Notes under the pieces: model-generated
The model's database searches: none
The model's input: only the letters and a program-made list of their open reading frames with translations
What the model was told of the DNA's origin: nothing
Translations under genes and position numbers: made by a program
Assembly: GCF_964019385.1 (NCBI RefSeq)
Contig: NC_088655.1
Location: 25,046,109-25,110,108, forward strand
Source of the DNA: Sycon ciliatum
Taxonomy: Eukaryota > Porifera > Calcarea > Leucosolenida > Sycettidae
Direction of reading: 5' to 3'
Length of the DNA: 64,000 nt
Shown: piece after piece, positions 7,791 through 52,063 of the stretch
Numbering within the stretch: position 1 is the first letter of the stretch
Layout of the letters: each line of letters begins with the position of its first letter

Positions 7791-8105
7791 AGGCAATTTG
7801 TAAAGAAAGGATTACCTCATCTTAGGTGGTCAAAGTGCCTCAGAGTTCGAGTGGCAGTGCAAAGCCAGTGAGTAAGCCAGTACAGTGAACAAGTGAACTC
7901 CTCAGCGATGGCCACAGATGGCTGTATTTCGGCAATGGAGATCGAAAGTCTGACCCGTGACAATTGTTCTCGAAAGGACGAAGACGATTCCTCGCTATGT
8001 ACGGATTTCCCGCGCGCTATGACCTATGTACGGACTTGTCCCACACCGAGCAGGTCGTAATATTTTGAATCGTTGAGTCGATCATGGTTGTGCACAAGTG
8101 ATGCG

Positions 8106-9535: not shown

Positions 9536-10045
9536 AGAGAAAGACCAAGGAACTACAAGTTACGCTATACTGTCCACTAACACCACCAGTTACTAAACAA
9601 TCAGGTCATGCGATAACATTGCATGACACTGACCGGCGGTACTGACGTTCTACAACTAACTGGCTAACAACTCTAGCACATCTTGGATGCGCACTCCAAC
9701 AGCCTTCCAACTTGGAAGGTTCAAAGTTATAGAAGTAACATAAGGAGGGGAAGGTGAGCGCAACCAAGAAAAGCACGAGCTGAAAGTCTCAGCTGTGAAG
9801 GACGTTGGCGGATGTTCATGCATGTCGATGACGATACTGGCAAGACTATTGGACAATACGGTAAAACCACTATTCAGGAACGCAAAGCCACATTCCACAC
9901 ACCTTGTGCGGCTCAAAAGATGCGTCAGTAGTATGTCAGTACCGTCGGTCAGTGGCGTGCAATGTTATCGCATGAGCTGACTGTTTAGTAACTGGTGGTG
10001 TTCGTGGACAGTATAGCGTAACTTGTAGTTCCTTGGTCTTTCTCT
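9536..10045. mobile_element. Fold-back element with arms of about 120 bp
   Basis: The left arm (9536 to about 9654) is the inverse of about 9925-10045 with few mismatches; both carry the AAGACCAAGGAACTACAAG block. The interior, 9690-9790, is a diverged relative of the 593-bp hammerhead repeat (Rz-1): the palindromic CCAACTTGGAAGGTTC block and the following GGGGAAGG segment match 43838-43900. No hammerhead core is left. Either a DNA element captured a ribozyme repeat, or this is a distant inverted Rz-1 pair. Confidence 0.75.
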
Positions 10046-14397: not shown

Positions 14398-15279
14398 TGT
14401 CATGCAGGTTCTCACATGCAACGGGAAAACTTCGTGGTAGTAAAATAGATTTGGCAAACAACAAAAGACAACCCTTTCTCTCTTCCTTTCAAAGAGCCGA
14501 ACTAATTACTTGCCGAGCCTCATCAAAAGCAAACTCTGAAAAAGCCCTACACTAGTACGGGATTCAGCGCAGAGCAAAAAATAATTATGAGTCATGATAC
14601 AATACATGCAGTGTAGCCGTGAACACTGGTGAACAAAGAATGCAGTAGGTTGGCAGCACGTGACCCGTCGTACCGCAGTACGCGACGGCGTCGCGGCTTA
14701 GAAATGAAAGGGAACACTGCGAGAAAAGATAAAACGAAAATACATTTCCCTTTGTCAAAACTTAGAAGAAACAAACAAAATGCGACCAAGAATCATTTTG
14801 AGAGTCTACGTCAATACTCTTGTGCCGTTGTGCATATTCTTGTCTTGCATTGTGCAACGCAAGAAACAAACAACCTACGAAATTACTCGTGAACTAACTG
14901 TAGGCTAAATCACTACATGTACGAGAAATTGCGTTCCAAAATAAACTGAACTGTCTGAGACATTTCATATTTCACCTCCGGGGAGAAATATTGAATAAAA
15001 TAGTAAATACGAAGTAGTGGTTGCGACTTCGGCGATGATTTGCAAGAAAGGGTTTGCTCCCCACACCGGAGCTCACGCTATTCCGCCGACTTTACTTGCA
15101 GGTTTGCCGAGTCGAAGGTTCGATGGACTTCTCGTGTGCTCTGGATGGCAGTCGTGAGTCAGTCAAGTGTCAAGTAAAGTCGGCGGAATAGCGCGAGCTC
15201 CGGTGTGGGGAGCAAACCCTTTCTTATAAATAGTAAATACATAATAAAAGAACATATGGCCACGACGGCCTTCCCAACA
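14398..15279 (-). repeat. BEL element 3' LTR, with fold-back insertion
   Basis: It is near-identical to 22004-22657, except for an insertion of about 230 bp at 15011-15240. Without that insertion it is about 652 bp, against 654 bp for the other LTR. It contains an 87-codon frame shared with the other LTR, which is only a by-product of LTR similarity. Confidence 0.92.
15011..15240. mobile_element. Fold-back MITE in the BEL LTR
   Basis: Arms 15044-15098 and 15171-15225 are 55 bp each and complementary at 54 of 55 positions. The decamer TAGTAAATAC occurs at 15001-15010 and again at 15231-15240 and only once in the other LTR, so it is probably the target duplication. In that case 33 bases at the left lie outside the inverted repeat. 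No coding capacity. Confidence 0.85.
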
Positions 15280-29202: not shown

Positions 29203-29239
29203 TATTAAAATTGTTGTCTCCTCGTCGAATATTTAAATA
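29203..29239 (+). repeat. Short PLE-2-type terminal fragment
   Basis: The block TTAAAATTGTTGTCTCCTCG and its flank match the 3' terminus of PLE-2 (38894-38926). It marks a lost PLE end between GypB and GypC. Confidence 0.7.
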
Positions 29240-30290: not shown

Positions 30291-31235
30291 GCCAACCTAG
30301 CTGACCAGGCTCATTTGGTTTATGACACCGTGTACATGGCTGAGCAGACCGGGTCACACCGCCAGTTCCTCGCATCGCTATTGGTGGATGGCAAGGAGTG
30401 TGAAGGTTTGCTGGATACCGGTGCAAGCCATACTATTCTCACTGATGACATTGTCCAGCCTACCCGCAGCAGTAATCGTGTCCTCAAGGCGTACACAGGC
30501 GGGGAGATTGCAACTTTAGGCATGGCTGATGTAACCATCGCATCTCCTACGCGTACCATGTCTTGTAGTTGTTTTGTTGTACCCCATGGGAAACATCGTA
30601 TTCTGTTCGGCCAGGATGTGATCTCCGAACTTGAGCTGTTGGTTCCAGCGCACCTGGTGGACACTGGCAATTTTGTTGACACCGCACCAATTTCCATCTC
30701 CGTGGATGCTGAAGCTAGGCCGGTGGCTCAACCAGCACGACGTCCCCCATACAGCGCCAAGGCCGACATTGAACATGAACTGCATCGTCTTGTCAAGGCA
30801 GACATCATCGAGCCAGTTAAGGAAGCGTCTGGATGGGTATCGCCGATCGTCCCAGTCCGTAAGTAAAACGGCACCTTGCGTTTATGTGTTGACTATCGGC
30901 AGTTGAACAAGTCTATTGTTAGAGAGCGACGTTCATTGCCAACCATTGATGAAATTACTGCGGAGCTTGCGGGAGCGGAGGTTTTCTCGGTTTTGGCCGC
31001 AGAGTCTGGTTTTCACCAGCTCTTGCTTGACGGCCAATCCCGACCGCTTACCACGTTTACCACACACTGTGGTCTCTATCGTTTCAAACGACTGCCATTT
31101 GGCATATCCTGTGCTCCCGAGATATTTCAGCGTGTTGTAACCGATCTCCTTTCGGGTTTGCCTGGTGTTGTTGTCTATATAGATGACGTCTTGGCGTATG
31201 GTCGCAACCGGGCGGAACACGACGCACGGCTCGCT
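30291..31235 (+). pseudogene. GypC protease and RT, part 1
   Basis: The protease has LLDTGASHTIL and a HRILFGQDVI flap-side segment. RT begins with YSAKADIEHELHRLVKADIIEPV. A TAA at 30864-30866 interrupts PVRK*NGTLRLCVDYRQLN in frame. The palm has YRFKRLPFGISCAPEIFQ and the catalytic VVVYIDDVLAYG. The reading ends at HDARLA where the CR1/L2-like tail begins. Confidence 0.9.
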
Positions 31236-31449
31236 ATTATTATTATTATTATTATTTCACCGTCCAATGGCAGAAGCCAATGCAAAGGAGGGGGCGTTAG
31301 CCAGCCATGGCAAGAGAAGATAAAAAAAAAAGAATGAAGGAAAGAAGATGATAATCGGAAGAAAATAATGCATCAGCGGGGTGAAATGTATCACTATGTT
31401 GACCATGGTGGAGAGCGGCGAGATAAGCTAGCAAAAGAGGCGAGCGAGC

Positions 31450-34419: not shown

Positions 34420-35040
34420 TCTGACGACGTGGAGGTTTTACCTGGTTTGTTCGTATTTGAATCTGCAAACCGCCACTTTCTTACGGTGTGCTGGATAGTT
34501 GCAGGCCAGAATCCGTCACCCAGTACCTTTTCCGTAGCTAAGGCTGGGAATGTCACTCTGGCGTAAGCTGTTCCGAAGGTGCGGGATTCCAAGATGGTGC
34601 AGTTGAGCACATCCACTGCACGCTCTTGACACCAATCCTTGATGGAGTCGGCACTGCAGCCCATGTGGACGTTTCCTACATAGAATATCGCTTTGTCCAC
34701 CTTTTCGACACCTGTCAGGACTACAGGGTTTGTTTCGACCGTGGGCATAGGCTTGACGTACTGAGATGTGACCCGACGTCGTACAACATCGACCCAAGAG
34801 CTCTGTCCATCTGATTTGTTGCGGGAACTGCTGTCCGTAGTGACGTGACCGTTGCCAGCAGGTCTAGGTGCTGTACGAGTAGTGTCGCTGGACTGGGAAG
34901 CGGCACGTGGTTGCGAGTGCATACCGGTAGTACGGTCATTTGAACTTGAGCGTGCATGCTGCGATGTGGAGGCTAGCGTTTTGGAATGACTCAAACCTGC
35001 TAATCTCTGCCTCAACTGGGGAAAGTGTCGCACTGGACTG
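34416..35040 (-). CDS. L2-A ORF1, 5'-truncated, RRM-like domain
   Basis: About 208 codons remain. A Ser/Thr/Arg-rich, presumably disordered N-terminal part is followed by SSWVDVVRRRV. A compact domain (KAIFYVGNVHMGCSADSIKDWC, RTFGTAYARVTFPA) resembles the RRM-like ORF1 domains of CR1/L2 elements. It lacks the true N-terminus because the element ends near 35041. The stop codon TGA overlaps the first ATG of ORF2. Role: an RNA-binding partner of ORF2p, by family knowledge. Confidence 0.75.
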
Positions 35041-36896: not shown

Positions 36897-38435
36897 TCTA
36901 GTAAGTTGTCATTTCTAGACGTGCTTGTAGAGAAGACTGGCTGTGAAATGTTGACTTCTGTGTATCGTAAGCCTACGTTCACTGGTCAGTACATTGCCTT
37001 CGATTCATATTGTTCGTCTCAATACAAGGTCAACTTAGTTCGTAACCTCGTGGACCGTGCGCAACGTATTTGTTCGCCCAGTAAGCTGCAGGCCGAGCTC
37101 GATTTTCTTCGATCTGTTTTCTTGAAGAATGGCTATCCGGAATTCTTGTTGGCTAAGTTTCTGTCCATGGAGCAGAAACCGAAATCGGTGCTGATTGGTC
37201 CACCTCGCTGTCTCGTCTATCTATGTTTGTCATGGAAGGGGCAGGAATCGATCAAAGTGTGTCGCGAAGTCAAGTCTATCGTCCGTCGTACTTATTATGC
37301 AGTACATTTTGTGCCAGTCTTCACAACAATGCGTGCGTTCACGGTGCGAAAGGACGTCCTACCAACCCTCCACCTTAGTCATGTTATCTACAACTTCGAA
37401 TGCCGACATTGTGCTAGTCGGTATGTTGGTAGGACTGTTCAGCACCTGAACGCACGTATCAAAAAACACACTCCACTTCACATCCTTCCACCCAGTGCGC
37501 AATCTGAGAGGCCCAAACGCGGGAGGCCTAGGAAAAACCCATCACCTACACGGCAGGATAGTTCCTTGCCGCTGTCTGCCGCTCCCCCTCTGACATCTGT
37601 GTTGGACGGGCTTGAGCTTGGCAGCTCTTTGGAGGTGCGTGCGGAACCGCCATTGGTGCAGCCGTCGGGTGTGCCTAAGTCTGTGCCTCTGGGTGCTTTG
37701 CATGGGGCTGTGCCTCGAGTGGTGACAGCACCTCTGCCTCCCCCTGACCCTCCTCCTTCGAGGTATGTGTTGGTGGAGAGCACCCGCGGCGGTCGATTTG
37801 TCCCACCGGAACTAGAGCTGGATTCAACAAAAAGACCAACAACCATGGCTGCAACAACAACACCAGCTTCACATCCAACAACAACACCAGGTTCACATCC
37901 AACAACAACAACAACTAATCCACAAAACAAAGCAGCAAATGACAGACCACTGAGATCTACAGCAGATTACAACCGGACCTATGAATTCACGGTAAAAATA
38001 CAAAGGAAACAATCGGAAAGGACGACGACTGACATGAAGGCAACGGCATTCACGGTTGGCGTGGGTGGTGAAGGTGAGACGCAGGACGATGCAAGTGAGG
38101 AGGGGAGTCAAACCGCTGTGGATGACGGAGCAGGTTCTGATTCGGACAATGAGGGAGAAGGTGAGCTGAGTGGGGGTGAGAGTGAGTGTGAGGGTGTGCG
38201 CGTGAGTCGAGATTGTGTGCGTCCGTCTCGTAATAAGTCTTCAGTATACAATCATTTGGTTTCTAGTACTGACTGTTGTCGTACTTATTCTGATTCCTGT
38301 TTTTCTGTTTTGTGCCGTGCTCGTCATGGTTATCTTTTGCAGTTACAAGTTTTGGAAGCTGTTTGTCAGCGCATTCATAAGCCGAATTTGTGTGTCCAGA
38401 AAGATAGTGTTATTACCCTAAAATTGTTCAAATAA
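36897..38435 (+). CDS. PLE-2A RT end plus split GIY-YIG endonuclease
   Basis: Open for about 512 codons. RT C-terminal part: LSFLDVLVEKTG, SVYRKPTFTGQYIAFDSYCS. The GIY-YIG N-half is FECRHCASRYVGRTVQHLNARIKKH. An AT-hook (KRGRPRKNP) follows, then a Pro/Thr-rich stretch and an acidic Ser/Glu/Asp stretch. The GIY-YIG C-half is SSVYNHLVSSTDCCRTYSDSCFSVL, then LQVLEAVCQRIHKPNLCVQKD. It lacks the catalytic palm because of truncation. Its protein differs from PLE-2B at scattered residues only. Confidence 0.88.
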   Translation, partial: SSKLSFLDVLVEKTGCEMLTSVYRKPTFTGQYIAFDSYCSSQYKVNLVRNLVDRAQRICSPSKLQAELDFLRSVFLKNGYPEFLLAKFLSMEQKPKSVLIGPPRCLVYLCLSWKGQESIKVCREVKSIVRRTYYAVHFVPVFTTMRAFTVRKDVLPTLHLSHVIYNFECRHCASRYVGRTVQHLNARIKKHTPLHILPPSAQSERPKRGRPRKNPSPTRQDSSLPLSAAPPLTSVLDGLELGSSLEVRAEPPLVQPSGVPKSVPLGALHGAVPRVVTAPLPPPDPPPSRYVLVESTRGGRFVPPELELDSTKRPTTMAATTTPASHPTTTPGSHPTTTTTNPQNKAANDRPLRSTADYNRTYEFTVKIQRKQSERTTTDMKATAFTVGVGGEGETQDDASEEGSQTAVDDGAGSDSDNEGEGELSGGESECEGVRVSRDCVRPSRNKSSVYNHLVSSTDCCRTYSDSCFSVLCRARHGYLLQLQVLEAVCQRIHKPNLCVQKDSVITLKLFK

Positions 38436-38714
38436 TGTTCTTTTGTGTAGTGTGGCAACGTTGTTGCCACTTGTGCCTACATGTGTTTTGTCACCTTCTT
38501 GTTTATTATTGTTATTAATATCATTCGTTCTCACTTTTTTGTTTTTGTTGCTGATACACACTTGTCACGCTTAGTTCTTACTTGTATACCCTTGTGTTCT
38601 GCACGCTTTTGTGAGAAATCGCACCTCGATATTCCAGTGCTGTCATTGTATCGTGTCACCCTACCTTGATTGCTATATTATTTCCTTTGTTCTCATTTTG
38701 TTCTTTAGTACAAC

Positions 38715-38758
38715 GGTGATTCTTGAAGAGTGTTGTACGAAAACTTGTTCGAATCATC
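38715..38758 (+). ncRNA. Hammerhead, PLE-2A 3' UTR (core C to T)
   Basis: Same fold as 41561-41604, but the core reads TTGAAGA instead of CTGAAGA, so it is probably inactive. Confidence 0.75.
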
Positions 38759-39111
38759 TTTTTTTCCATTGCCCTTTTTCTTCTTACATGTATTTTCCTT
38801 ACCCTTTAGATTGTTTCTTGCATCGTCTCCATCGCTTACATTGTTAATAAAGTAGTCCACATGTCGCTTCAGCTCGTCCTACTTATTGCCATATTAAAAT
38901 TATTGTCTCCTCGTCGAATTTTTAAATAATAATAATAATAATTTAAAAATTCGACGAGGAGACAATAATTTTAATATGGCAATAAGTAGGACGAGCTGAA
39001 GCGACATGTGGACTACTTTATTAACAATGTAAGCGATGGAGACGATGCAAGAAACAACCTAAAGGGTAAGGAAAAATACATGTAAGAAGAAAAAGGGCAA
39101 TGGAAAAAAAA

Positions 39112-39155
39112 GATGATTCGAACAAGTTTTCGTACAACACTCTTCAGGAATCACC
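39112..39155 (-). ncRNA. Hammerhead, inverted 5' copy of PLE-2B
   Basis: Complement of the motif at 41561-41604, with an intact CTGAAGA core, on the - strand. Confidence 0.85.
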
Positions 39156-39450
39156 GTTGTACTAAAGAACAAAATGGGAACAAAGGAAATAATATAGCAA
39201 TCAAGGTAGGGTGACACGATACAATGACAGCACTAGAATATCGAGGTGCGATTTCTCACAAAAGTGTGCAGAAAACAAGGGTATACAAGTAAGAACTAAG
39301 CGTGACAAGTGTGTATCAGCAACAAAAAACAAAAAAGTGAGAACGAATGATAATAATAACAATAATAAACAAGAAGGTGACAAAACACATTTAGGCACAA
39401 GTGGCAACAACGTTGCCACACCACACAACAGAACATTATTTGAACAATTT

Positions 39451-41280
39451 CGTCATTTGATGCTGTCAGTTACAACTGGTGTCGAATTTTCGTTCAACGA
39501 TGTGATGTACAAGCAAGTAGATGGTGTGGCGATGGGATCTCCTCTTGGTCCCGTCCTCGCCAATATATTTGTTGGTTATTGTGAGTGCAAGATTGATGAG
39601 TCGCTTTGGCCCGCGTTCTACGTGCGTTTTGTTGACGATTCGTTCACGCATTTTGACAGTGTTGAGAGCAGTGAATTGTTTCTCGATGTGCTCAACAACC
39701 TACATCCTTCCCTCCGCTTTACTTGTGAGCACGAGCAGTCTAGTAAGTTGTCATTTCTAGACGTGCTTGTAGAGAAGACTGGCTGTGAAATGTTGACTTC
39801 TGTGTATCGTAAGCCTACGTTCACTGGTCAGTACATTGCCTTCGATTCATATTGTTCGTCTCAATGCAAGGTCAACTTAGTTCGTAACCTCGTGGACCGT
39901 GCGAAACGTATTTGTTCGCCCAGTAAGCTGCATGCCGAGCTCGATTTTCTTCGATCTGTTTTCTTGAAGAATGGCTACCCCGAATTCTTGTTGCGTAAGT
40001 TTCTGTCCATGGAGCAGAAACCGAAATCGGTGCTGATTGGTCCACCTCGCTGTCCCTTCTATCTATGTTTGCCATGGAAGGGGCAGGAATCGATCAAAGT
40101 GTGTCACGCAGTCAAGTCTATCGTCCGTCGTACTTATTATGCAGTACATTTTGTGCCAGTCTTCACAACAATGCGTGCGTTCACGGTGCGGAAGGACGTC
40201 CTACCAACCCTCCACCTCAGTCATGTTATCTACAACTTCGAATGCCGACATTGTGCTAGTCGGTATGTTGGTAGGACTGTTCAGCACCTGAACGCACGTA
40301 TCAAACAACACACTCCACTTCACATCCTTCCACCCAGTGCGCAATCTGAGAGGCCCAAACGCGGGAGGCCTAGGAAAAACCCATCACCTAGACGGCAGGA
40401 TAGTTCCCTGCCGCTGTCTGCCGCTCCCCCTCTGACATCTGTGTTGGACGGGCTGGAGCTTGGCAGCTCTTTGGAGGTGCGTGCGGAACCGCCACTGGTG
40501 CAGCCCTCGGGTGTGCCTAAGTCTGTGCCTCTGGGTGCTTTGCATGGGGCTGTGCCTCGAGTGGTGACAGCACCTCTGCCTCCCCCTGACCCTCCTCCTT
40601 CGAGGTCTGAGTTGGTGGGGAGCACCCGCGGCGGTCGATGTGTCCCACCGGAACCAGAGCTGGATTCAACAGAAAGACCAACAACCATGGCGGCAACAAC
40701 AACACCAGCTTCACATTCAACAACAACACCAGGTTCACATCCAACAACAACAACAACTAATCCACAAAACAAAGCAGTAAATGACAGACCACGGAGATCT
40801 ACAGCAGATTACAACCGGACCTATGAATTCACGGTAAAAATACAAAGGAAACAATCGGAAAGGACGACGATTGACGTGAAGGCAACGGCATTCAGGGTTG
40901 GCGTGGGTGGTGAAGGTGAGACGCAGGACGATGAAAGTGAGGAGGAGAGTCAAACCGCGGTGGATGACGGAGCAGGTTCTGATTCGGACAGTGAGGGAGA
41001 AGGTGAGCTGAGTGAGGGTGAGAGGGAGTGTGAGGGTGTGCGCGTGAGTCGAGATTGTGTGCGTCCGTCTCGTAATAACAAGTCTTCAGTATACAATCAT
41101 TTGGTTTCTAGTACTGACTGTTGTCGTACTTATTCTGATTCCTGTTTTTCTGTTTTGTGCCGTGCTCGTCATGGTTATCTTTTGCAGTTACAAGTTTTGG
41201 AAGCTGTTTGTCAGCGCATTCATAAGCCGAATTTGTGTGTCCAGAAAGATAGTGTTATTACCCTAAAATTGTTCAAATAA
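39451..41280 (+). CDS. PLE-2B RT palm plus split GIY-YIG endonuclease
   Basis: The frame is open from 39211, but its first 80 codons are the inverted 3' UTR and not genuine protein. From 39451: the RT palm with FSFNDVMYKQVDGVAMGSP, PLGPVLANIFVGY and the catalytic FYVRFVDDSFTHF, then SVYRKPTFTGQYIAFD. GIY-YIG N-half: FECRHCASRYVGRTVQHLNARI. Insert of about 250 residues: AT-hook KRGRPRKNP, Pro-rich, Thr-rich and acidic segments. C-half: SSVYNHLVSSTDCCRTYS...VLEAVCQRIHKPNLC. RT finger motifs are missing. Role: target nicking by GIY-YIG and target-primed reverse transcription; the AT-hook could hold AT-rich targets (inference). Confidence 0.9.
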   Translation, partial: RHLMLSVTTGVEFSFNDVMYKQVDGVAMGSPLGPVLANIFVGYCECKIDESLWPAFYVRFVDDSFTHFDSVESSELFLDVLNNLHPSLRFTCEHEQSSKLSFLDVLVEKTGCEMLTSVYRKPTFTGQYIAFDSYCSSQCKVNLVRNLVDRAKRICSPSKLHAELDFLRSVFLKNGYPEFLLRKFLSMEQKPKSVLIGPPRCPFYLCLPWKGQESIKVCHAVKSIVRRTYYAVHFVPVFTTMRAFTVRKDVLPTLHLSHVIYNFECRHCASRYVGRTVQHLNARIKQHTPLHILPPSAQSERPKRGRPRKNPSPRRQDSSLPLSAAPPLTSVLDGLELGSSLEVRAEPPLVQPSGVPKSVPLGALHGAVPRVVTAPLPPPDPPPSRSELVGSTRGGRCVPPEPELDSTERPTTMAATTTPASHSTTTPGSHPTTTTTNPQNKAVNDRPRRSTADYNRTYEFTVKIQRKQSERTTIDVKATAFRVGVGGEGETQDDESEEESQTAVDDGAGSDSDSEGEGELSEGERECEGVRVSRDCVRPSRNNKSSVYNHLVSSTDCCRTYSDSCFSVLCRARHGYLLQLQVLEAVCQRIHKPNLCVQKDSVITLKLFK

Positions 41281-41560
41281 TGTTCTGTTGTGTAGTGTGG
41301 CAACGTTGTTGCCACTTGTGCCTAAATGTGTTTTGTCACCTTCTTGTTTATTATTGTTATTATTATCATTCGTTCTCACTTTTTTGTTTTTTGTTGCTGA
41401 TACACACTTGTCACGCTTAGTTCTTACTTGTATACCCTTGTTTTCTGCACACTTTTGTGAGAAATCGCACCTCGATATTCTAGTGCTGTCATTGTATCGT
41501 GTCACCCTACCTTGATTGCTATATTATTTCCTTTGTTCTCATTTTGTTCTTTAGTACAAC

Positions 41561-41604
41561 GGTGATTCCTGAAGAGTGTTGTACGAAAACTTGTTCGAAT
41601 CATC
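41561..41604 (+). ncRNA. Hammerhead ribozyme, PLE-2B 3' UTR
   Basis: Stem I is GGTGATTC/GAATCATC (8 bp with one G-T pair), core CTGAAGA (the seventh core position is variable in hammerheads), stem II GTG/TAC with a TTG loop, GAAA, stem III AAC/GTT with a 2-nt loop, and cleavage after TTC. All essential bases are present. Confidence 0.88.
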
Positions 41605-41751
41605 TTTTTTTTCCATTGCCCTTTTTCTTCTTACATGTATTTTTCCTTACCCTTTAGGTTGTTTCTTGCATCGTCTCCATCGCTTACATTGTTAATAAAG
41701 TAGTCCACATGTCGCTTCAGCTCGTCCTACTTATTGCCATATTAAAATAAA

Positions 41752-41768
41752 AATAATAATAATAATAA
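41752..41768. repeat. (AAT)n at PLE-2B/PLE-3 junction
   Basis: AAT repeats separate the PLE-2B terminus from the inverted PLE-3 end. Confidence 0.9.
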
Positions 41769-41832
41769 CCGACGAGGAGACAACAGTCGTAAAATAGCAA
41801 TGAAAAATATCAATTGTGCACTCATAACCATG

Positions 41833-42143
41833 TTCTCGTCTTTGGTTATGTAATCTTGTTACCTTTTTTGCGTTTCCTTTAGTGGTTTTATTGCACTTGT
41901 ATCTTGTGGTTATTTCTAACACCTTTCTATTTACAGTACTTAACTTCAGTTTCTTTGGTTGTATCCTTAGTTCCGTTTTTCCCACTGATGATTGGAACGA
42001 GAAAATCGATTCTGGGTTTTCAATAATATTTTTGTTATAAAATACACAGTAATACATGTCAAACAAGTAACGTAGTTGCGTGATGTCTGCAGCCTTCATC
42101 CTATTCATAGCTATATTAAAATTATTATCTCCACGTAGGTTAT
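41833..42143 (+). mobile_element. 311-bp insertion with own hammerhead and 11-bp duplication
   Basis: The 11-mer TCATAACCATG lies at 41822-41832 and 42144-42154 and occurs once at the equivalent point of the 3' copy. The insert ends with a PLE-type terminus (ATTAAAATTATTATCTCC). Its left part matches 54319-54386 inverted. I read it as a short non-autonomous hammerhead element inserted in the PLE-3 5' arm. Confidence 0.75.
41981..42016 (+). ncRNA. Hammerhead ribozyme in the 311-bp insertion
   Basis: Stem I CCCA/TGGG, core CTGATGA, stem II TTG/CGA with a GAA loop, GAAA, a self-complementary stem III AATCGATT, cleavage after TTC. Stem II is weak (one G-T pair). Confidence 0.7.
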
Positions 42144-42177
42144 TCATAACCATGTATAAACAATTAAAATGAAACAA

Positions 42178-42213
42178 TTCCAGAACGTTTTCGTGTGACC
42201 ATCATCAGTGGAA
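42178..42213 (-). ncRNA. Hammerhead-like motif, PLE-3 inverted end
   Basis: - strand: stem I TTCCA/TGGAA, core CTGATGA, a short weak stem II, GAAA, palindromic AACGTT as stem III, cleavage C. Stem II allows only about two pairs. Confidence 0.6.
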
Positions 42214-42476
42214 CATCGTCCCATAGTAAGAATCACTAAAACAACCAGTTATAATTATAGCTAGAGTAATATGAAAAGAAGCGTGAGAATGCAGCACAGC
42301 TAGCGGTTATGCATAACGCGTGTAGTGTGAACATTTGCAGTGTATCTGAGAATGGTAGCAGTAGATGAATGTGGCAGCTGTGAGTGCGTGTGAACAAAAA
42401 CTGGTGAGTGTGTATTATTTAAAAAGTGTGAGTGCAACAACATTTTCTTTTTTTTTGCTTGCATAGAACAGGGTCA

Positions 42477-42783
42477 CGTGTGCGTGTGCGACAGTGCGGT
42501 AGTCGGTATGTTGGCAGGACGCTTCAACACTTGTCCGAACGTATCAAACAGCACGTCCCATTGTCCTTGTTGTCAAAAGCGGCCAGGGCAGGCAGGCCAA
42601 AGCGTGGGAGGCCACGAAAACACCCGTTGCCTACTACTACGCCTGTCAGTATTACAACACAACCAGAAACGGATACAACACCGGACTCAACAGCAGCGCA
42701 ACACACGAATTTGGTGTCACTCTTGACGACAACAACACGACATGGGAGACCACCGGACGATCGTTCGTTAACGAAAAAAAAAA

Positions 42784-42816
<33 letters not shown>

Positions 42817-43315
42817 CCCGACTGCGGTAACGGAAAGATCCCCAGGAGAACGAAATGAAAATGGAGGAAAAACGAATCTGAGGAGAAGCCAGAGACTAGC
42901 GGAGACACGACTGAGAAAAATGGAGAAGGCGGAACCAGTAGTGGCAGGTGAAAGTACGGGCGCAGCAGTGAACACGTCAAGGAGAAAGAAGCGATGGCAT
43001 GAGGAGATGGAGATGGAGGATGATGATGGGGATGAACAGGATGGTCAGGAGGAAAGCAAGGGTGAGCAGGAACAGGCAGTGGAGGATGAGAGTGATATGG
43101 ACGAGGAGGAGTTCGACATCGACAAGAGCAAGTCTGCCATCTACAAGCATTTGGTGTCCAGTCCGGATTGTCGTAAGTTGTTTGACGATTCCTGGTTTAG
43201 TGTTATTTGTCACGCGCGTTTCTTTAAGCAGTTGCAGGTGTTGGAAGCTGTATATATTCTCACACGTGACCCTGTTCTATGCAAGCAAAAAGAAAATGTT
43301 GTAGCACTCACAAAT
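42477..43315 (+). pseudogene. PLE-3 split GIY-YIG endonuclease, RT absent
   Basis: The first frame gives VRQCGSRYVGRTLQHLSERIKQH, then the AT-hook RPKRGRPRKHP and a Thr-rich stretch. A run of A and (AAT)n at 42776-42813 breaks the frame. The second frame (42920-43432) has basic RRKKRWHEE, a strongly acidic stretch, then SAIYKHLVSSPDCRKLFDDSWFSVI and LQVLEAVYILTRDPVLCKQKE. The order N-half, AT-hook, low complexity, acid, C-half is the same as in PLE-2, so the split domain is a shared feature. No RT remains. Confidence 0.85.
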
Positions 43316-43514
43316 AATACACACTCACCAGTTTTTGTTCACACGCACTCACAGCTGCCACATTCATCTACTGCTACCATTCTCAGATACACTGCAAAGG
43401 TTCACACTACACGCGTTATGCATAACCGCTAGCTGTGCTGCATTCTCACGCTTCTTTTCATGTTACTCTAGCTATATAACTGGTTGTTTTAGTGATTCTT
43501 ACTATGTGACGATG

Positions 43515-43550
43515 TTCCACTGATGCTGGTCACACGAAAACGTTCTGGAA
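43515..43550 (+). ncRNA. Hammerhead-like motif, PLE-3 3' UTR (core A to C)
   Basis: Same as 42178-42213, but the core reads CTGATGC. Stem I (TTCCA/TGGAA) and palindromic AACGTT are kept. Probably inactive. Confidence 0.6.
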
Positions 43551-43609
43551 TTGTTTCATTTTAATTGATTATACATGGTCATGAGTGCACAATTGATATT
43601 TTTCATTGC

Positions 43610-43633
43610 AATAATAATAATAATAATAATAAT
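43610..43633. repeat. (AAT)8 at PLE-3/Rz-1 junction
   Basis: Eight AAT units link the PLE-3 3' end to the inverted Rz-1 copy. Confidence 0.95.
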
Positions 43634-44523
43634 TTGAAACTCGGATGTTGAGCCATAAATAAATGTGGAAGAGAAAAGGACATATGGATACGAGTTAAGA
43701 GTAACTCTCCATCACTGTAACATGATACTATATACAGTCAGAAAGTGCAATAACTAGGCACAAAACTGACAGAGTACTGAAACATTCGACGTCCTGACAC
43801 CTAGCTTTAACACATCTCCGTAGCGCTAACCGACAGCCTTCCAACTTGGAAGGTTCAAGGTTATGGAAAAGACCAAAGAGGGGAAGGCAAGCGCAACGAA
43901 AATGAGCAAAAGCCACAGTCCCAACGGAACAAAGAATGTCGATTGTTACTGGACGATGACGAGACCAGTACGATATTTGACAAAGCGGTCTAACTACAAT
44001 TCGAAGCAGCAAAGCAGCACACCACCCAACTTGGGTGGGTCATAAATATCAAAGATAAGTAAAGAAAGGGAAGCTTTGCGAAAACGAATTGTACAAGCCG
44101 AAAGCCAAACTCCTACACCCAAGTTGGGTGGTGTGCTGCTTTGCTGCTTCGAATTGTAGTTAGACCGCTTTGTCAAATATCGTACTGGTCTCGTCATCGT
44201 CCAGTAACAATCGACATTCTTAGTTCCGTTGGGACTGTGGCTTTTGCTCGTTTTCGTTGCGCTTGCCTTCCCCTCTTTGGTCTTTTCCATAACCTTGAAC
44301 CTTCCAAGTTGGAAAGCTGTCGGTTAGCGCTACGGAGATGTGTTAAAGCTAGGTGTCAGGACGTCGAATGTTTCAGTACTCTGTCAGTTTTGTGTCTAGT
44401 TATTGCACTTTCTGACTGTATATAGTATCATGTTACAGTGATGGAGAGTTACTCTTAACTCGTATCCATATGTCCTTTTCTCTTCCACATTTATTTATGG
44501 CTCAACATCCGAGTTTCAAATTG

Positions 44524-44572
44524 CACACCTGATGAGCCGTCACGAACCATACGGCGAAACGAACGTTGTGTG
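44524..44572 (+). ncRNA. Hammerhead ribozyme, Rz-1 unit 1
   Basis: Stem I CACAC/GTGTG, core CTGATGA, stem II GCCGT/ACGGC with a 10-nt loop, GAAA, stem III ACG/CGT with a 2-nt AA loop, cleavage after GTT. All core bases fit. Confidence 0.88.
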
Positions 44573-45116
44573 AAACCACTTGTTTTGTAGTCAACTAGCC
44601 CATCACAATGTCATGCATGAGGAGTACTGTAGGAGTTTGGCTTTCGGCTTGTACAATTCGTTTTCGCAAAGCTTCCCTTTCTTTACTTATCTTTGATATT
44701 TATGACCCACCCAAGTTGGGTGGTGTGCTGCTTTGCTGCTTCGAATTGTAGTTAGACCGCTTTGTCAAATATCGTACTGGTCTCGTCATCGTCCAGTAAC
44801 AATCGACATTCTTTGTTCCGTTGGGACTGTGGCTTTTGCTCGTTTTCGTTGCGCTTGCCTTCCCCTCTTTGGTCTTTTCCATAACCTTGAACCTTCCAAG
44901 TTGGAAGGCTGTCGGTTAGCGCTACGGAGATGTGTTAAAGCTAGGTGTCAGGACGTCGAATGTTTCAGTACTCTGTCAGTTTTGTGCCTAGTTATTGCAC
45001 TTTCTGACTGTATATAGTATCATGTTACAGTGATGGAGAGTTACTCTTAACTCGTATCCATATGTCCTTTTCTCTTCCACATTAAATTTATGGCTCAACA
45101 TCCGAGTTTCAAATTG

Positions 45117-45165
45117 CACACCTGATGAGCCGTCACGAACCATACGGCGAAACGTACGTCGTGTG
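45117..45165 (+). ncRNA. Hammerhead ribozyme, Rz-1 unit 2
   Basis: Identical to 44524-44572 except that stem III is ACGTACGT (fully self-complementary) and the cleavage triplet is the preferred GTC. The third unit ends at 45673 before its ribozyme. Confidence 0.9.
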
Positions 45166-45673
45166 AAACCACTTGTTTTGTAGTCAACTAGTCCATCACA
45201 ATGTCATGCATGAGGAGTACTGTAGGAGTTTGGCTTTCGGCTTGTACAATTCGTTTTCGCAAAGCTTCCCTTTCTTTACTTATCTTTGATATTTATGACC
45301 CACCCAAGTTGGGTGGTGTGCTGCTTTGCTGCTTCGAATTGTAGTTAGACCGCTTTGTCAAATATCGTACTGGTCTCGTCATCGTCCAGTAACAATCGAC
45401 ATTCTTTGTTCCGTTGGGACTGTGGCTTTTGCTCGTTTTCGTTGCGCTTGCCTTCCCCTCTTTGGTCTTTTCCATAACCTTGAACCTTCCAAGTTGGAAG
45501 GCTGTCGGTTAGCGCTACGGAGATGTGTTAAAGCTAGGTGTCAGGACGTCGAATGTTTCAGTACTCTGTCAGTTTTGTGCCTAGTTATTGCACTTTCTGA
45601 CTGTATATAGTATCATGTTACAGTGATGGAGAGTTACTCTTAACTCGTATCCATATGTCCTTTTCTCTTCCAC

Positions 45674-45685
45674 AATAATAATAAT
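45674..45685. repeat. (AAT)4 at Rz-1/Rz-2 junction
   Basis: Four AAT units between the last Rz-1 unit and the inverted Rz-2 copy. Confidence 0.95.
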
Positions 45686-45919
45686 GGTTGATAAATATGG
45701 TGGTAAAGACACACCCGGCAATATGGCGGTAAACACACGCCTGCCCACACACGCTCTCTAGGCTGCAAAGTTCTAGCACAGAGCTCTCCTTCTCACCACC
45801 ACCACCATCAGTTCGCGCCTAGCGCCTGGTCGATGCATGGTTGGCGGTATCCGGCATAGCAGGCTGGTACATCAAGTAGCGCATGGCACATAGAAGATGA
45901 CACAGCAACGACATAGCTC

Positions 45920-45943
45920 GATTGCGACGTACGTTTCGTCCCC
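45920..45943 (-). ncRNA. Half hammerhead in the inverted Rz-2 copy
   Basis: Only the 3' half (GGGGACGAAAC through GCAATC on the - strand) is present. The copy switches orientation right at the stem II loop. Confidence 0.8.
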
Positions 45944-46069
45944 ACTGTTTACCGCCATATTGCCGGGTGTGTCTTTACCACCACATTTATCAACCATAAG
46001 TACAGCTGCAGTGGTATCTTCAACTTCATTCTCCCGAGTCAAGCTCCGTATGAAGACACCCAAGAAGAA

Positions 46070-46113
46070 GATTGCCTGATGAGTCCAGCGGGGACGAAAC
46101 GTACGTCGCAATC
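46070..46113 (+). ncRNA. Hammerhead ribozyme, Rz-2 unit 1
   Basis: Stem I GATTGC/GCAATC (6 bp), core CTGATGA, stem II GTCC/GGAC with an AGCGG loop, GAAA, self-complementary stem III ACGTACGT, cleavage after GTC at 46107. A complete consensus type-I motif. Confidence 0.92.
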
Positions 46114-46442
46114 GAGCTATGTCGTTGCTGTGTCATCTTCTATGTGCCATGCGCTACTTGATGTACCAGCCTGCTATGCCGGATACCGCCAACCATGCAT
46201 CGACCAGGCGCCAGGCGCGAACTGATGGTGGTGGTGGTGTTTGTTTTTTGTTTGTTTGTTTATTTAGAGTCGAAGAACAAACAGGCAAATTTGCCTAATT
46301 ACATGATATCGACTAAAAGGAGAATAAATTATAAAAGGCCAATGAAGGTAATGACACTGAGTAGAGTGGGTAGTAAAGTATTTCGTCATTGTTAAAGCCA
46401 GTTAGGCCAGTAAGGGAAATAATAATACAGCGGGCAGTGGCA

Positions 46443-48089
46443 TTACTGAAAAGCAGCATGTGCTGGGAGGGATCGCATGAATCGGTGGTACTGTGGGATT
46501 TTCCTGATGTCGGGCTGGAGCCTGTTCCACAGTGATACACATTGGAATGAGGCAGAATGTGTGCCAGCGGATGTCTTAGTGACTGGAAATTTAAGTGCTC
46601 GATTTCCCTGACTACGTGTAGCACGGCCGGCATTAAGAGGACTGAACATATCGGTAAGCAATGTGCTGCATTTACCCTGAAGGCAGCGCCAAGTGTAGCC
46701 AAGCAGCTTGTGGCAGTACATAACTTCTAGCGAGTGCAATCGCAATTGGCAATACAGCGGCGCAGATGGTGATGCAAATGGAGCGTTGTAAACACAGCGG
46801 ACTGCGCGCTTGAGTAGCCACTCTAGGCGCTCGAGCTGATGTGAGGTGAGGCCAGCAGAGAAACAGTTGCTAGCATACCGGAAGTCAGGAAGGATCAGGG
46901 ACTTCAGGTATGTGATGCGGCACGGGAGGGGCATGCAGCGCCTGTTTCTAAACAGGACAGCTATTTTACAGGCCGCTCGCTTGGCGATCTGGTTGACCAT
47001 TGTGGTCCACTTTAGATCTTGGTCCATGTGGACACCAAGATACTTTGCGGATTCTACTTGTGCCAGTTGAACTCCAGAGCACATAATGCTGACGCGAGGA
47101 TTCACAGAACGATGGGCAGGGATGAACAAAATCTGGGTTTTACTCCCGTTTAGTACCAGGTTCCTGCTGGCAAGCCATCTGGCCAGGTGTGTAACTGCAG
47201 AAGACATATTGCGTTCCAGCTGATGTTTGTCCCTGCTACTAATATAGAGCATGATGTCATCTGCGAACTGAACTGTCCGCACACCATACGGTTGCACTTC
47301 AGCTGCCACACCACGGACATAGAGGACAAACAGCAGAGGACCAAGTACGGAACCCTGGGGCACACCACTGCTGGGCTGGAATACCTTGCTGTGCTGGTTC
47401 CCAATGACAACTCTTTGCTGCCGGTCACTTAAGTAGTCTGCCAGCCAATTCAGCGCACTTCCACCAACACCAATACTGAAGAGGTCGCGGATGAGGGTGC
47501 CATGTTGAACCTTGTCGAATGCCTTCGACATGTCAACAAAGGCGGCGCAAGTTGAGAGTCCGGAGTCTTTGGCATTGGCAAAGGCCTCTGATGCCATCAC
47601 AACAGCATCCTCTGTTGAGTGCTGTTTCCGGAATCCGAACTGGCAATCTGGGTAGAGGCTGTGGGTGGTCAAGAATTCAGTGAGTTGCGAATGTACGATG
47701 CGCTCAAGGATCTTTGAGATAATCGGCAACAGAGAAACAGGCCTGAAATTGGTGGCCTTAGTAGGGTCGCCGCTCTTGTACACAGGGGTGATATTTGCAA
47801 GTTTCATGGATAGTGGAAATCTCCCTTCGGAAAGTGACTTGTTGAAGATGAGAGTTACTGATGGAGCTAAGAGGTCAGAGCATGCTGCTAGTACAAGAGC
47901 AGGTACGCCATCACTGCCCGTTGACTTTGTCGTATCTACACTGCTGAGTAACTTGCGTACACATGCGATGGATACTGGCTTGAAACAGCAGAGATCAGTA
48001 CTTGCATGCGGACCAGAGGGGATGGATGGACAGCACCTTTGGGCGAGTCGCATCGGTGACGATGTCCGCAAACACTTGTCCGATTTCAT
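46443..48089 (-). pseudogene. nLTR-B reverse transcriptase
   Basis: Open for 548 codons in the frame of the RT: TKSTGSDGVPALVL, ANITPVYKSGDPTKATNFRPVSLLP, FVDMSKAFDKV, GVPQGSVLGPLLFVLYV and the catalytic VQFADDIMLYI near residue 275. The C-terminal region ends with TSAGTHSASFQCVSLWNRLQ and LPAHAAFQ, as in CR1/L2-type elements. A 1-nt shift near 48040 separates it from the endonuclease frame. Confidence 0.9.
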
Positions 48090-49235
48090 CCAGGGGGCAT
48101 TGAGGAGCAGTGTGGGTCCGTGTTCTGCCTGATACCTGGTTAATCACTCTCCATGTTTGTCTTGGCTGACCTTCCGCATTGGCAAACTGATCCTGATAGT
48201 AGCAGGCCTTGAGTCGTCGGTTAAGCTGGTTCACATCACGTCTGGTCTGGCGGAAAGCTTCATGGTCCACAGGGTTGCAGGTGCGTAGCCATTTGCGGTG
48301 GGCCCGGTTTCGACTAGATATTGTGGCCAGCAGGTTTGCATCCATCCAAGGAACATGTTTGCGTGTTTTGGTGCGGCGGGTCCTCAAAGGAGCATGTTTG
48401 TCTAGGATATCCAGGAACTTCTTCAGCCATCGAGTCCACATCTCATCACACGATCCATCCCAGGAGCACAAGTTTGCAGCCACGAGGTCATTGCGAAACA
48501 TTTCCATGTTGATGCCTCGGAGGTGCCGAGTCTGCGGTTGAGCATTCTGGGGTGCACAGTCAGCAGTGGTTGCCAGGGTAGAGATGACAGCCGAATGGTC
48601 ACTAAATGATACTGGGGAGACAATGGTTGGGGCTCTGCACAGCAACGTACTAAATACTAAGTCCAGGGTGGTTTGTGATCCCGTAATTCCGATTCTTGTG
48701 GCCTGACTCACACTTTGTGACAGTCCGAGGGTATTCGCGATGTCAGATAGATATGAGAGTTGACCACTCTGGCAGCTATAGTCAACATTGAAGTCACCAC
48801 AGATTATGACATCCTTTGGCTCCCTCATCGCACGAGTGAACGTCGCTTCCAGGGCCTGCCAGTAAGACACTCGCATATGAGGTGGCCGATACAGACAGGC
48901 AATGAGACAAGGCTTCGGCTGGGCCTTCACCTCTACCCAGCAGCACTCAATATCCTGTGTGGCAAGATCTGGCCGGGGGTGGCATTTCAGTCCGACATCA
49001 GTGTATATACACACACCACCACCCAAGTTCCCGCAACGGTCTAGGCGATGTAGGGTGTAACCTGGTATGGACATTAATTTTCTGCTGTTGTAATTGTACC
49101 ATCGAGCCAAGTTTCTGAGACAGCTATTACATTGGGCACACAAGTAGAGGCCAGTTGCATTAGATCCTGCAGCTTCTGGCGGAGGCTGCAGATGTTCAGG
49201 GACAGTACTTTCAACGTGGAATGTGAACTAGTCAT
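47995..49235 (-). pseudogene. nLTR-B APE endonuclease
   Basis: The natural start is ATG at 49235 (MTSSHSTLKVLSLNICSLRQ, VIAVSETWLDG). A frameshift near 49085 moves to the frame running from 49143 to 47995: SIPGYTLHRLDRCGNLGGGV, VIICGDFNVDYS near residue 115 and FSDHSAVI. The catalytic Glu, Asp and His motifs are all present across the two frames. Linker residues lead to the RT frame. Confidence 0.88.
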
Positions 49236-49606
49236 GATCTAATAGATTGTTGGTGGTCTTTTCGCATCTCTTTAGCTGGCATGATAGTTGCATCAAACCT
49301 GGTCTCGGTCACAACAGCGATGTCTACATTGTGGTGCGTGACAGTGTGGACAAATTCTCCAAATTTGTTTGCTAAGCTAAAAGCATTAGTCACCAGGAGG
49401 CGTAGTGATTGGGTCGAGGTGGTGAGAAGGAGAGCTCTGTGCTAGAACTTTGCAGCCTAGAGAGCGTGTGTGGGCAGGCGTGTGTTTACCGCCATATTGC
49501 CGGGTTTGTCTTTACCACCATATTTATCAACCATAAGTACAGCTGCAATGGTGTCTTCAACTTCATTCTCCCGAGTCAAGCTCCGTATGAAGACACCCAA
49601 GAAGAA

Positions 49607-49650
49607 GATTGCCTGATGAGTCCAGTGGGGACGAAACGTCCGTCGCAATC
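49607..49650 (+). ncRNA. Hammerhead ribozyme, Rz-2 unit 2
   Basis: As 46070-46113, with loop II AGTGG and stem III ACG/CGT closed by TC. Cleavage after GTC at 49644. Confidence 0.92.
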
Positions 49651-49958
49651 GAGCTATGTCGTTGCTGTGTCATCTTCTATGTGCCATGCGCTACTTGATG
49701 TACCAGCCTGCTATGCCGGATACCGCCAACCATGCATGGACCAGGCGCCAGGCGCGAACTGATGGTGGTGGTGGTGAGAAGGAGAGCTCTGTGCTAGAAC
49801 TTTGCAGCCTAGAGAGCGTGTGTGGGCAGGCGTGTGTTTACCGCCATATTGCCGGGTGTGGCTTTACCACCATATTTATCAACCATAAGTACAGCTGCAG
49901 TGGTGTCTTCAACTTCATTCTCCCGAGTCAAGCTCCGTATGAAGACACCCAAGAAGAA

Positions 49959-50002
49959 GATTGCCTGATGAGTCCAGCGGGGACGAAACGTACGTCGCAA
50001 TC
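49959..50002 (+). ncRNA. Hammerhead ribozyme, Rz-2 unit 3
   Basis: Identical to 46070-46113; cleavage after 49996, exactly 352 bp from the previous one. Confidence 0.92.
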
Positions 50003-50268
50003 GAGCTATGTCGTTGCTGTGTCATCTTCTATGTGCCATGCGCTACTTGATGTACCAGCCTGCTATGCCGGATACCGCCAGCCATGCATCGACCAGGCGC
50101 CAGGCGCGAACTGATGGTGGTGGTCGTGAGAAGGAGAGCTCTGTGCTAGAACTTTGCAGCCTAGAGAGCGTGTGTGGGCAGGCGTGTGTTTACCGCCATA
50201 TTGCCGGGTGTGTCTTTACCACCATATTTATCAACCATAAGTACAGCTGCAATGGTGTCTTTAACTTC

Positions 50269-50310
<42 letters not shown>
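50269..50310. repeat. (AAT)14 at Rz-2 3' end
   Basis: Fourteen AAT units separate the truncated last Rz-2 unit from the next non-LTR element. Confidence 0.95.
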
Positions 50311-50314
<4 letters not shown>

Positions 50315-50424
50315 CAGGTCGCGTAATGAAGCAGCATAACGATAGATGCACAAAGTCATGATGCCTGGTCCGCTGCTGTCCTGGGTTCGCTACCCCGTGC
50401 ATTGCAGCCGCAAGCAAAACCAGC

Positions 50425-52063
50425 TCAGGCTGAGAGTTCCCTCCATGATTGCTTGTCCAAAGCGCGCATCCTGAGCCCGCTCAGATCAGTCATGGTCTTC
50501 AGTGGCATGTCTCCCGGCAGCTGCGCTTGCCATGACTGCCGTGGCCAGGTTCGATTTCGGGCGTCCACGCACACCGGTGAAATCTCGACGGAAGTAGTTG
50601 TCCATTGCCTGCTGTGGTGGGGCATCTGAGGGCATCCTCAGAACATGACCCAACATCTGGAAACGGCGGACAGCAACGGTGTGCGAGAGTGGCTGTGTGT
50701 GTGCTCTGGAATATAGGTCTTTGTTGGAGATGATGGCGGGATACCTAATTCCGAACAAGTTCCGTAGTTGACGTCTATGGAAGGCGTTCAGCTTCTCCAG
50801 TGCAGCTTCCGTCAGTCCCCAGGTTTCGCAGTTGTATAACAGTGTTGGTACTTGACGATGGCATTGTAGAGACGAAGCCGCGTTTCCTCGGATACAAGTT
50901 GACGTCGTATCCAGAGCGAATACATGCGGCCGTACGATGTTGATGCCTGGTCCATTCGTCGGCTCAAGTCCTCCTCTTCCCCCAAGAGAGAGCCAAGTTG
51001 CTTCGATCTTCGCCATTCGGTGGTGGATGCAGAGATGTGAAGCCACTCTGTTTTGCTGCTGTAATGTTGAGTGACCAGTCACCCAGGCCGTCAGCTATCA
51101 CGGTTAGGGAGTTGGCAAGCCATTGTCGCTCAGTCGAATAGAAGGAAATGTCATCGGCATATCCTGTTTCCTGTGGTATTGCTGCATCAGTGTCTGGCCG
51201 TGGTGGTAGTTTGCTTCGAGTCTCCCTCAGTGCTGCTTCCAGGTAGCAAACGAACAGAACCGGGCTCAGCCCATCACCCTGTGGTGTAACAAACGCCTCC
51301 GCTGAAGTGGCACCCACTTTCACAGAGAGTGTTGTACCATACAGCAAATGGTGAATCAGGCAAGCCTCGTCAGGTCCTGTAATCTCTGACATAACAGCAA
51401 GGAGCTTTCTGCGGCTAATGGTGTTGAATGCTTTCGACATGTCGAGGCCAAGGACGTGGCAAACCCACACGAAGTGGGTGGCTTTAGCTGAAATCCAGCG
51501 CTGTGTCCATACCACATCGGCAGTGCAACTGCCAGGCCTGAAACCAGACGAAGTGGATCCATGATAATGCGACACACATGATGTAATACATTTGAGCACA
51601 ACGAGTGAAATGACCTTGCGCAATGTGTTCAGCAATACAATCGGTCTCAGGTTTGCAACTGGTCCCCGTGTTTGTTTTGGTAACAGTATCAATATGCCTG
51701 GACCAATAACACTACACAGGTCGTCGCCCTTGGTGATGCTGTTGTTGATCATGATGGTGATGATCGGGGGGATGTATCAGCACCGTACTCGAGGAGTTCT
51801 GCGCATACACCATGCGGCCCACATGCTTTCTGACTTCGCAGTCGCCTCAAAGCCGCCTCTACTTCTTCAGTGGAAACGGGCGTCTCCAGTGTGTGCGGAG
51901 CTGGCGGTGGCAGCAGGTCATCAGAAGTGTTGTACTGCCCCTGATAGTGAGCACGTATGCGAGATACCTTTTCCTCATCGCGCATGAGGATGTGACCAAC
52001 AGCCGACTCGACGAAGAGCTGCTGCGGCTTGCCACGTTTGAGCTGGGAGGATGCTATAAACAT
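50425..52063 (-). pseudogene. Non-LTR reverse transcriptase nLTR-C, three frames
   Basis: From 52063 down: LRRLRSQKACGPHGVCAELLEYG (region before RT), then frame 51752-50964 with ANLRPIVLLNTLRKVISLVVL, SGFRPGSCTADVVWTQRW, GLDMSKAFNTI, TPQGDGLSPVLFVCYLEAALRE and the catalytic GYADDISFY. Frame 51082-50486 has the end domain with LYNCETWGLTEAALEKLNAFHRR, RRFQMLGHVLRMP and GVRGRPKSN. Two frameshifts break it. The endonuclease is missing. The clade is uncertain, and it differs from the CR1/L2-like copies. Confidence 0.85.

Follow-up and report, generated by a model that had tools for sequence, protein, structure and literature searches.

Metazoan retrozymes without long terminal repeats (non-LTR retrozymes) have been described as tandem repeats with type I hammerhead ribozymes and no coding region, with target duplications of more than 4 bp, in genomes that also hold Penelope-like elements (PLEs) (Cervera and de la Peña 2020, PMC7229834). 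Mobilization of animal retrozymes by PLEs has already been proposed (PMC7229834, PMC7761336): PLEs were named as candidates based on the common hammerheads, the tandem copies and the co-occurrence (PMC7229834), while the retrozyme repeats were said to carry no motif that reveals the machine (PMC7761336). Among PLEs, those of Adineta have inverted pseudo-LTRs, a 31-bp tail on one inverted copy, target duplications of 8 to 10 bp and AT-rich targets (PMC3846280), and a purified PLE protein from Anolis cleaves both strands and extends them, with a preference for ATT, and has 2 adjacent internal start sites, which define the tail (PMC11167929). Mutations in the PLE ribozyme were reported to leave insertion in vitro unaffected (PMC11167929), and the hammerhead therefore need not act in integration. 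Here, we analyzed a stretch of 64,000 nucleotides (nt) from the calcareous sponge Sycon ciliatum (contig NC_088655.1, positions 25,046,109 to 25,110,108; "the window"), in which 3 PLE copies (PLE-2A, PLE-2B and PLE-3) are followed by 2 families of hammerhead-bearing tandem repeats, Rz-1 and Rz-2.

Like PLEs of the Penelope/Poseidon type, Rz-1 and Rz-2 have an inverted extra copy at their start, a one-sided tail, an AT-rich target, a short duplication and a hammerhead (PMC3846280, PMC11167929); unlike PLEs, they encode no protein, are short repeats, and have arms that can hold many units. They share all the above-mentioned traits of the metazoan non-LTR retrozymes, but head-to-head arms, 2 start sites and a rule of one each go unmentioned in the available text of PMC7229834, in whose main text the word "inverted" occurs 0 times. 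The Rz-2 unit (352 bp) lies within the 150 to 450 bp usual for retrozymes in that source, whereas the Rz-1 unit (593 bp) is longer; circles of up to more than 1000 nt are mentioned there as well. Judging from sequence, Rz-1 and Rz-2 are probably animal-type non-LTR retrozymes that were inserted in trans by a Penelope-type enzyme, combining a reverse transcriptase (RT) with a GIY-YIG endonuclease, as for PLE-2. While mobilization by PLEs is a known proposal, we found no structural evidence from paired ends of the kind given below in the open-licence papers searched, and head-to-head arms or a tail in retrozymes were unreported in the titles and abstracts that searches of open-licence PMC papers listed.

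Head-to-head arms with one short and one long 3' start

To compare the elements of the window with their genomic relatives, its own assembly (538 Mb, 313 contigs) was searched, and loci were drawn from the best 40 of 515 to 1449 candidates per query. We read 36 independent Rz-2, 13 Rz-1 and 19 PLE-2 loci at both ends, counting the window in each, plus 20 genomic 3' ends of LINE-A, a family of long interspersed nuclear elements (LINEs) present in the window. Two-armed inserts of Rz-1, Rz-2 and PLE-2 have a common signature: the arms lie head to head, and both begin from the 3' end of the element, one of them at a "short" and the other at a "long" start site, about 24 to 37 nt apart. This difference is known from PLEs as the tail. 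These paired starts, seen in all 3 families with genomic copies, support the proposal of the earlier note on this DNA that one integration machine serves the PLEs and both hammerhead repeats, and they are stronger evidence for it than the features on which the note had relied.

Two arms were found head to head at 27 of the 36 Rz-2 loci, with 8 others one-armed and one complex (the two-arm counts leave out L051 and L052, which are duplicates, and the complex locus L062). In all 27, a short outer end was paired with a long one; with independent and equally frequent use of both kinds of end, the probability of this outcome would be 0.5 to the power 27. The short end was on the left in 13 of 27, the expectation if strand is irrelevant. 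In the 22 loci with exact termini, outer ends fell at unit positions 273–282 and 309–322, with 2 exceptions on the short side (259 and 232); this set leaves out the window, L005, L044 and L048, where AAT hides the duplication, along with one-armed loci and loci without an 8-bp duplication (e.g., L035). Their target duplications measured 12 to 14 bp, apart from lengths of 8, 10 and 17 bp. Across the 34 loci tested, 26 had duplications of at least 10 bp (mode 13 bp), compared with 0.45% of 2000 shuffled pairs that reach 9; our script found none in L034, L039, L055 and L058, although inspection by eye showed duplications of 13 bp past its search range in L039 and L055. Directly past the start, microhomology between target and RNA averaged 1.59 nt versus 0.40 expected, a value as high being found in 0 of 5000 permutations.

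These data bear on the possibility that the structure arose after insertion, through recombination, segmental duplication or assembly error in inverted repeats. Block duplicates do exist (L051, L052), and one PLE-2 locus (L103) has no duplication. However, the Rz-2 loci lie on many contigs with their own 12–14 bp duplications, and later rearrangement would not give every locus one short and one long end, so that we regard such an origin as extremely improbable.

For Rz-1, the sample consists of the window and 12 clusters read at sequence level from the best-scoring matches listed. All 13 paired a short end (CTCTTCCAC) with a long end (GAGTTTCAA), the distance between them being about 31 nt, and the same 2 ends were seen in 2 older copies met by chance (L035 and L056). 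The duplication length is mostly unreadable in AAT; in the older copy L056 it is about 12 bp by eye. Clusters outside the sample appear mixed by coordinates only; one of them (C2:23144170) ends at 539 and not at about 560, and another (C3:22336226) is complex.

The PLE-2 loci (the window, L083–L086, L103–L111 and L115–L119) comprise 14 with two arms, 2 with one arm (L104, L105), 2 with an inverted inner piece (L110, L111) and one that is incomplete (L116); L048, of which one end was seen, and an older copy in L055 were chance encounters and are not counted. In 13 of the 14 two-armed loci, a short end was combined with a long one, at a spacing of about 24 nt. Since the PLE-2 query held the tail, one long end was selected for, and the informative observation is that the other end was short in 13 of 14.

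An inverted arm could also be made by fold-back, in which a single cDNA primes on itself and copies itself, as was proposed for PLEs given the palindromes at their inverted junctions (PMC3846280). In line with this, the inner ends of Rz-2 are at most 52 nt apart at 12 of 27 loci, where 8 are expected. Fold-back predicts equal ends and equal arms, however, whereas the ends were unequal in 27/27 Rz-2, 13/13 Rz-1 and 13/14 PLE-2 loci, and the Rz-2 arms differ in length (e.g., 38 versus 350 nt, and 1395 versus 4914 nt). On these grounds, we rejected fold-back as very unlikely.

Both arms of a locus copy a single template sequence, often over multiple rounds. The 36 non-majority variants that were fixed in 2 or more units of an arm came from 14 Rz-2 loci; on average, 34.5 of these were also present in the other arm, versus 3.6 expected from the variant frequency in other loci. 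The median difference was 0.62% between the arms of one Rz-2 locus and 1.40% between loci; for PLE-2, arms differed at 14 of 3610 sites and different loci by a median of 1.26%, and of the non-majority variants in the arm overlap (L103 left out), 18 were in both arms and 13 in one. More than one unit is present in 37 of 54 Rz-2 arms, the lengths of paired arms correlate (rho 0.53, p 0.0045), and the arm with the long end is the longer one in 21 of 27 loci (p 0.006). Inner ends coincide with the hammerhead cut in 1 of 54 cases (1.7 expected). Given these arm lengths and inner-end positions, the usual template is a circle or multimer instead of a linear monomer made by the ribozyme.

AAT repeats at targets and at LINE ends

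The earlier note had considered AAT junctions to be a signature common to all of these elements, with (AAT)n as either a favored target or a product. AAT is unevenly used. At least 4 AAT or ATT units flanked Rz-1 on the same strand on both sides in 11 of 13 loci (the others lie in (AT)n and in unique DNA, respectively), and same-strand AAT or ATT was present on both sides of PLE-2 in 9 of 14 two-armed loci. In the remaining PLE-2 loci, the flanks were TATAATAAT on both sides (L109), an AT-rich duplication (L084), A-rich runs (L108), a partial repeat (L083) or none (L103); counted singly, 11 of 14 flanks of long ends had at least 4 units, some of them from the same loci. Rz-2 had AAT flanks in only 5 of 36 independent loci (a count that took in L052 and not the window; swapping the 2 again gives 5/36). 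Of the 2 features that the note had expected in most Rz copies, AAT junctions are therefore scarce in Rz-2, while inverted starts are frequent. Because the repeats to the left and right of a head-to-head element are on one and the same strand, AAT is the target and not the product for PLE-2 and Rz-1, and we rejected it as a PLE or Rz tail.

As a control, AAT had been expected to be rare in non-LTR copies. This expectation failed: LINE-A, which ends in GGTGAAATAAT in 19 of 20 genomic copies, continues into sense AAT of at least 3 units in 18/20 and at least 4 units in 13/20, with antisense runs in 0/20. AAT by itself thus proves nothing, and we rejected it as a common signature given its presence in LINE-A and its scarcity at Rz-2. 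The one-sided sense tail of LINE-A is nevertheless distinguishable from the two-sided, same-strand target of Rz-1 and PLE-2. The LINE-A copy in the window (minus strand, 31235–35000) is flanked by 2 parts of a gypsy-like element and has (AAT)7 at its end (31235–31256); a search for a target duplication flanking it found none. At L129, a LINE-A tail adjoins an apparent PLE end by eye, and LINE tails may therefore supply targets.

The AAT ends of LINE-A raise the alternative that a LINE inserts the retrozymes, with the inversions due to ordinary twin priming and AAT as a LINE-type 3' tail. In the twin priming of L1, both target strands likewise prime reverse transcription and part of the insert is inverted, but the inverted segment lies inside the insert, with its start away from the 3' end. 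One PLE-2 locus resembles this (L111:2075–2957), with an inverted inner piece that meets the direct part at the next base. By contrast, each arm of Rz-1, Rz-2 and two-armed PLE-2 starts from the 3' end, and the 2 arms overlap; twin priming of a single linear RNA does not produce such a structure. Moreover, the AAT repeats to either side of Rz-1 share a strand but vary in orientation (with the long end set left, ATT in 6 and AAT in 5, by our own tally), and the Rz ends lack a LINE-A-like 3' end. No inverted partner of LINE-A was found among the 40 matches listed, which cover neither partners several kb off nor the 5' ends. We therefore consider insertion by a LINE unlikely.

Rz-1 and PLE-2 ends share one AAT repeat at L073, L086, L115 and L119, as they do in the window. 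This repeated proximity argues against convergence, in which another enzyme with 2 start sites, or host repair, would build the same structure in retrozymes, as does the joint occurrence of arms lying head to head, a strictly one-sided tail, an AT-rich target and a duplication, which together match the description of PLE insertions (PMC3846280, PMC11167929). While convergence could draw on the lack of a common RNA motif at the start sites and on the target use of Rz-2, which is unlike that of PLE-2, we judge it quite unlikely.

Layout of the block and its hammerheads

In the window, PLE-2A, PLE-2B, PLE-3, Rz-1 and Rz-2 are consecutive along one series of AAT repeats, and reading the sequence bore out both the AAT runs that the earlier note had placed at every junction and the inverted starts of PLE-2B, PLE-3, Rz-1 and Rz-2, with some amendments. 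At least 4 AAT units occur in 10 of 1610 45-bp windows from the flanks of Rz-2 loci and in 3 of 1156 from the window outside the block; given this low background, AAT at all 5 junctions greatly exceeds the chance expectation. PLE-2A (36900–38924, plus strand) lacks its 5' part, has an approximate left boundary and a start without AAT, and ends at its 3' side in an end of the long kind, followed by an (AAT)6 target repeat (38925–38942). PLE-2B consists of an inverted arm (38943–39450, minus strand, outer end long) and a direct arm (39451–41748, plus strand, outer end short) that holds a partial RT, a GIY-YIG-like segment, both scoring below the Pfam cutoffs, and the 3' region; the matching parts are 38968–39450 and 41266–41748. 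After an AAT repeat (41752–41768), PLE-3 begins with an inverted arm on the minus strand (outer part 41769–41833, with an extra 28-nt tail at its end; inner part 42144–42482), interrupted by a PLE-4-like 3' piece (41834–42143, plus strand) that is flanked by a 12-bp target duplication read by eye (41822–41833 and 42144–42155). Its direct arm (42483–43609, plus strand) has an outer end without the tail, and the arms match at 42144–42253/43475–43584 and 42256–42420/43312–43476. Within a coding-like stretch of PLE-3 lies a further (AAT)9.7 (42784–42812), preceded by an A run; PLE open reading frames (ORFs) with asparagine-rich inserts and (AAT)n are described for Adineta (PMC3846280).

An (AAT)8 repeat (43610–43633) separates PLE-3 from Rz-1, which has an inverted arm (43634–44117, minus strand, outer end long) and a direct arm of 593-bp units (44116–45673, plus strand, outer end short), matching at 43657–44117 and 44628–45088. 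Across an (AAT)4 junction (45674–45685) follows Rz-2, with an inverted arm (45686–45947, minus strand, outer end short) and a direct arm on the plus strand, of which the first part (45946–46239) is separated from the second (49418–50268, 352-bp units, outer end long) by an inserted LINE, LINE-B (46240–49417, minus strand, boundaries approximate). The arms match at 45679–45947 and 49623–49891, and (AAT)14 (50269–50312) lies to the right.

Using the general rule for a type I hammerhead core, a core scan found such a core in each of PLE-2B, Rz-1 and Rz-2, with an 8-nt stem III segment that is self-complementary or nearly so. The terminal-region hammerhead of PLE-2 is present in both arms of PLE-2B (39112–39155, minus strand; 41561–41604, plus strand). 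Rz-1 has plus-strand cores at 44521–44575 and 45114–45168, and Rz-2 has hammerheads at 46068–46115 (plus strand, found by Rfam and the core scan), 49605–49652 and 49957–50004. Rfam accepted 2 Rz-2 copies at 35.4 bits (cutoff 34), with the third (31.8 bits) and Rz-1 (26.8 bits) below the cutoff; a type I hammerhead in every tandem unit is thus found in Rz-2 by Rfam for two of three copies, and in Rz-1 by the core scan only. By eye, the PLE-2A hammerhead has one core base changed, and the core scan of the window gave no match in PLE-3. The earlier view that all ribozymes in the block are of the same minimal type therefore applies to three of the five elements.

Several other parts of the window resemble these elements. 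A 26-bp tandem repeat (6653–6702) is similar by eye to part of Rz-2, a 191-bp tandem repeat of 2.7 copies (7287–7808) has the size of a small retrozyme but gave no match in the hammerhead scan, and 9671–9918 is 70% like Rz-1 and perhaps an older relative. Two minus-strand ORFs (12433–14457) look by eye like another PLE, without support from Pfam, and 29203–29235 is a 33-bp match to the long 3' end of PLE-2, the remainder of which is absent. Elsewhere in the genome (L051, L052; G000:C8:31570552-31576986), the block is duplicated at 99% on contig C8, a partial duplicate (L052) has about 217 bp extra inside its AAT run, and nearby the PLE-2A/PLE-2B junction is found three times at 2842-bp spacing. 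We had suspected from L021 and L052 that LINE-B and Rz-2 transposed as a composite, but rejected this, as L052 is a segmental duplicate whose right flank also matches the window (50304–52000, 98.9%).

A possible route of insertion and its meaning

The following route would account for these structures. First, cuts in the 2 strands of AT-rich DNA, often (AAT)n, would lie about 13 nt from each other and produce 3' overhangs, as suggested by the target duplications. The overhangs would then pair over a short match with the retrozyme RNA, one at a proximal and the other at a distal start site about 31 to 37 nt apart; the start positions and the microhomology are observed, and both overhangs may pair simultaneously. 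Next, both cDNAs copy one template sequence, often beyond one round, as the arms show; this template would be a homogeneous multimer or, perhaps, a circle. Finally, the free cDNA ends would be joined, resulting in the observed head-to-head arms between target duplications. The enzyme would presumably be of the Penelope type. Considering that the AAT habit of PLE-2 is found in Rz-1 but not in Rz-2, these 2 repeats may be served by different PLE families. A more specific form of this route, to which we give an even chance, is two-primer reverse transcription on a single RNA circle, in which each cut strand starts at an obligatory site of its own and both proceed round the circle in the same direction; an asymmetric dimer of the PLE enzyme might set this arrangement.

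A number of observations weigh against insertion by a Penelope-type enzyme. The truncated PLE-2B copy in the window scores 21 bits for RVT_1, below the cutoff of 29.6, and 19.7 bits for GIY-YIG, where the cutoff is 22.6. PLE-3 was read from one copy, that of the window, on which its share in the proposal rests. Rz-2 is rarely found in AAT, while PLE-2 and Rz-1 usually are, and the PLE that serves Rz-2 may therefore belong to another family. At the start sites we saw no common sequence, nor a common structure upon RNA folding of the start regions. Among 25 Rz-2 loci, only 8 have arms that are closer to one another than to any other locus, and the likeness of arms could also result from gene conversion between them. 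Among the PLE-2 loci, L103 has 2 long ends with unlike flanks and no readable duplication, and the older copy in L055, which has a 12-bp duplication, carries a full tail on neither side.

This insertion fingerprint is countable in the assembled genome of any animal, and it predicts exact start positions for a purified PLE protein. It gives the tail and the inverted copy of PLEs a rule, namely one start of each kind per insertion, and with 2 families of ribozyme repeats carrying a PLE fingerprint, the spread of such repeats can be tested directly. If the two-primer mechanism is true, an asymmetric dimer would have left its record in the one-short-one-long rule, the common template and the correlation of arm lengths, and the same rule would explain the tail and the inverted copy of PLEs at large.

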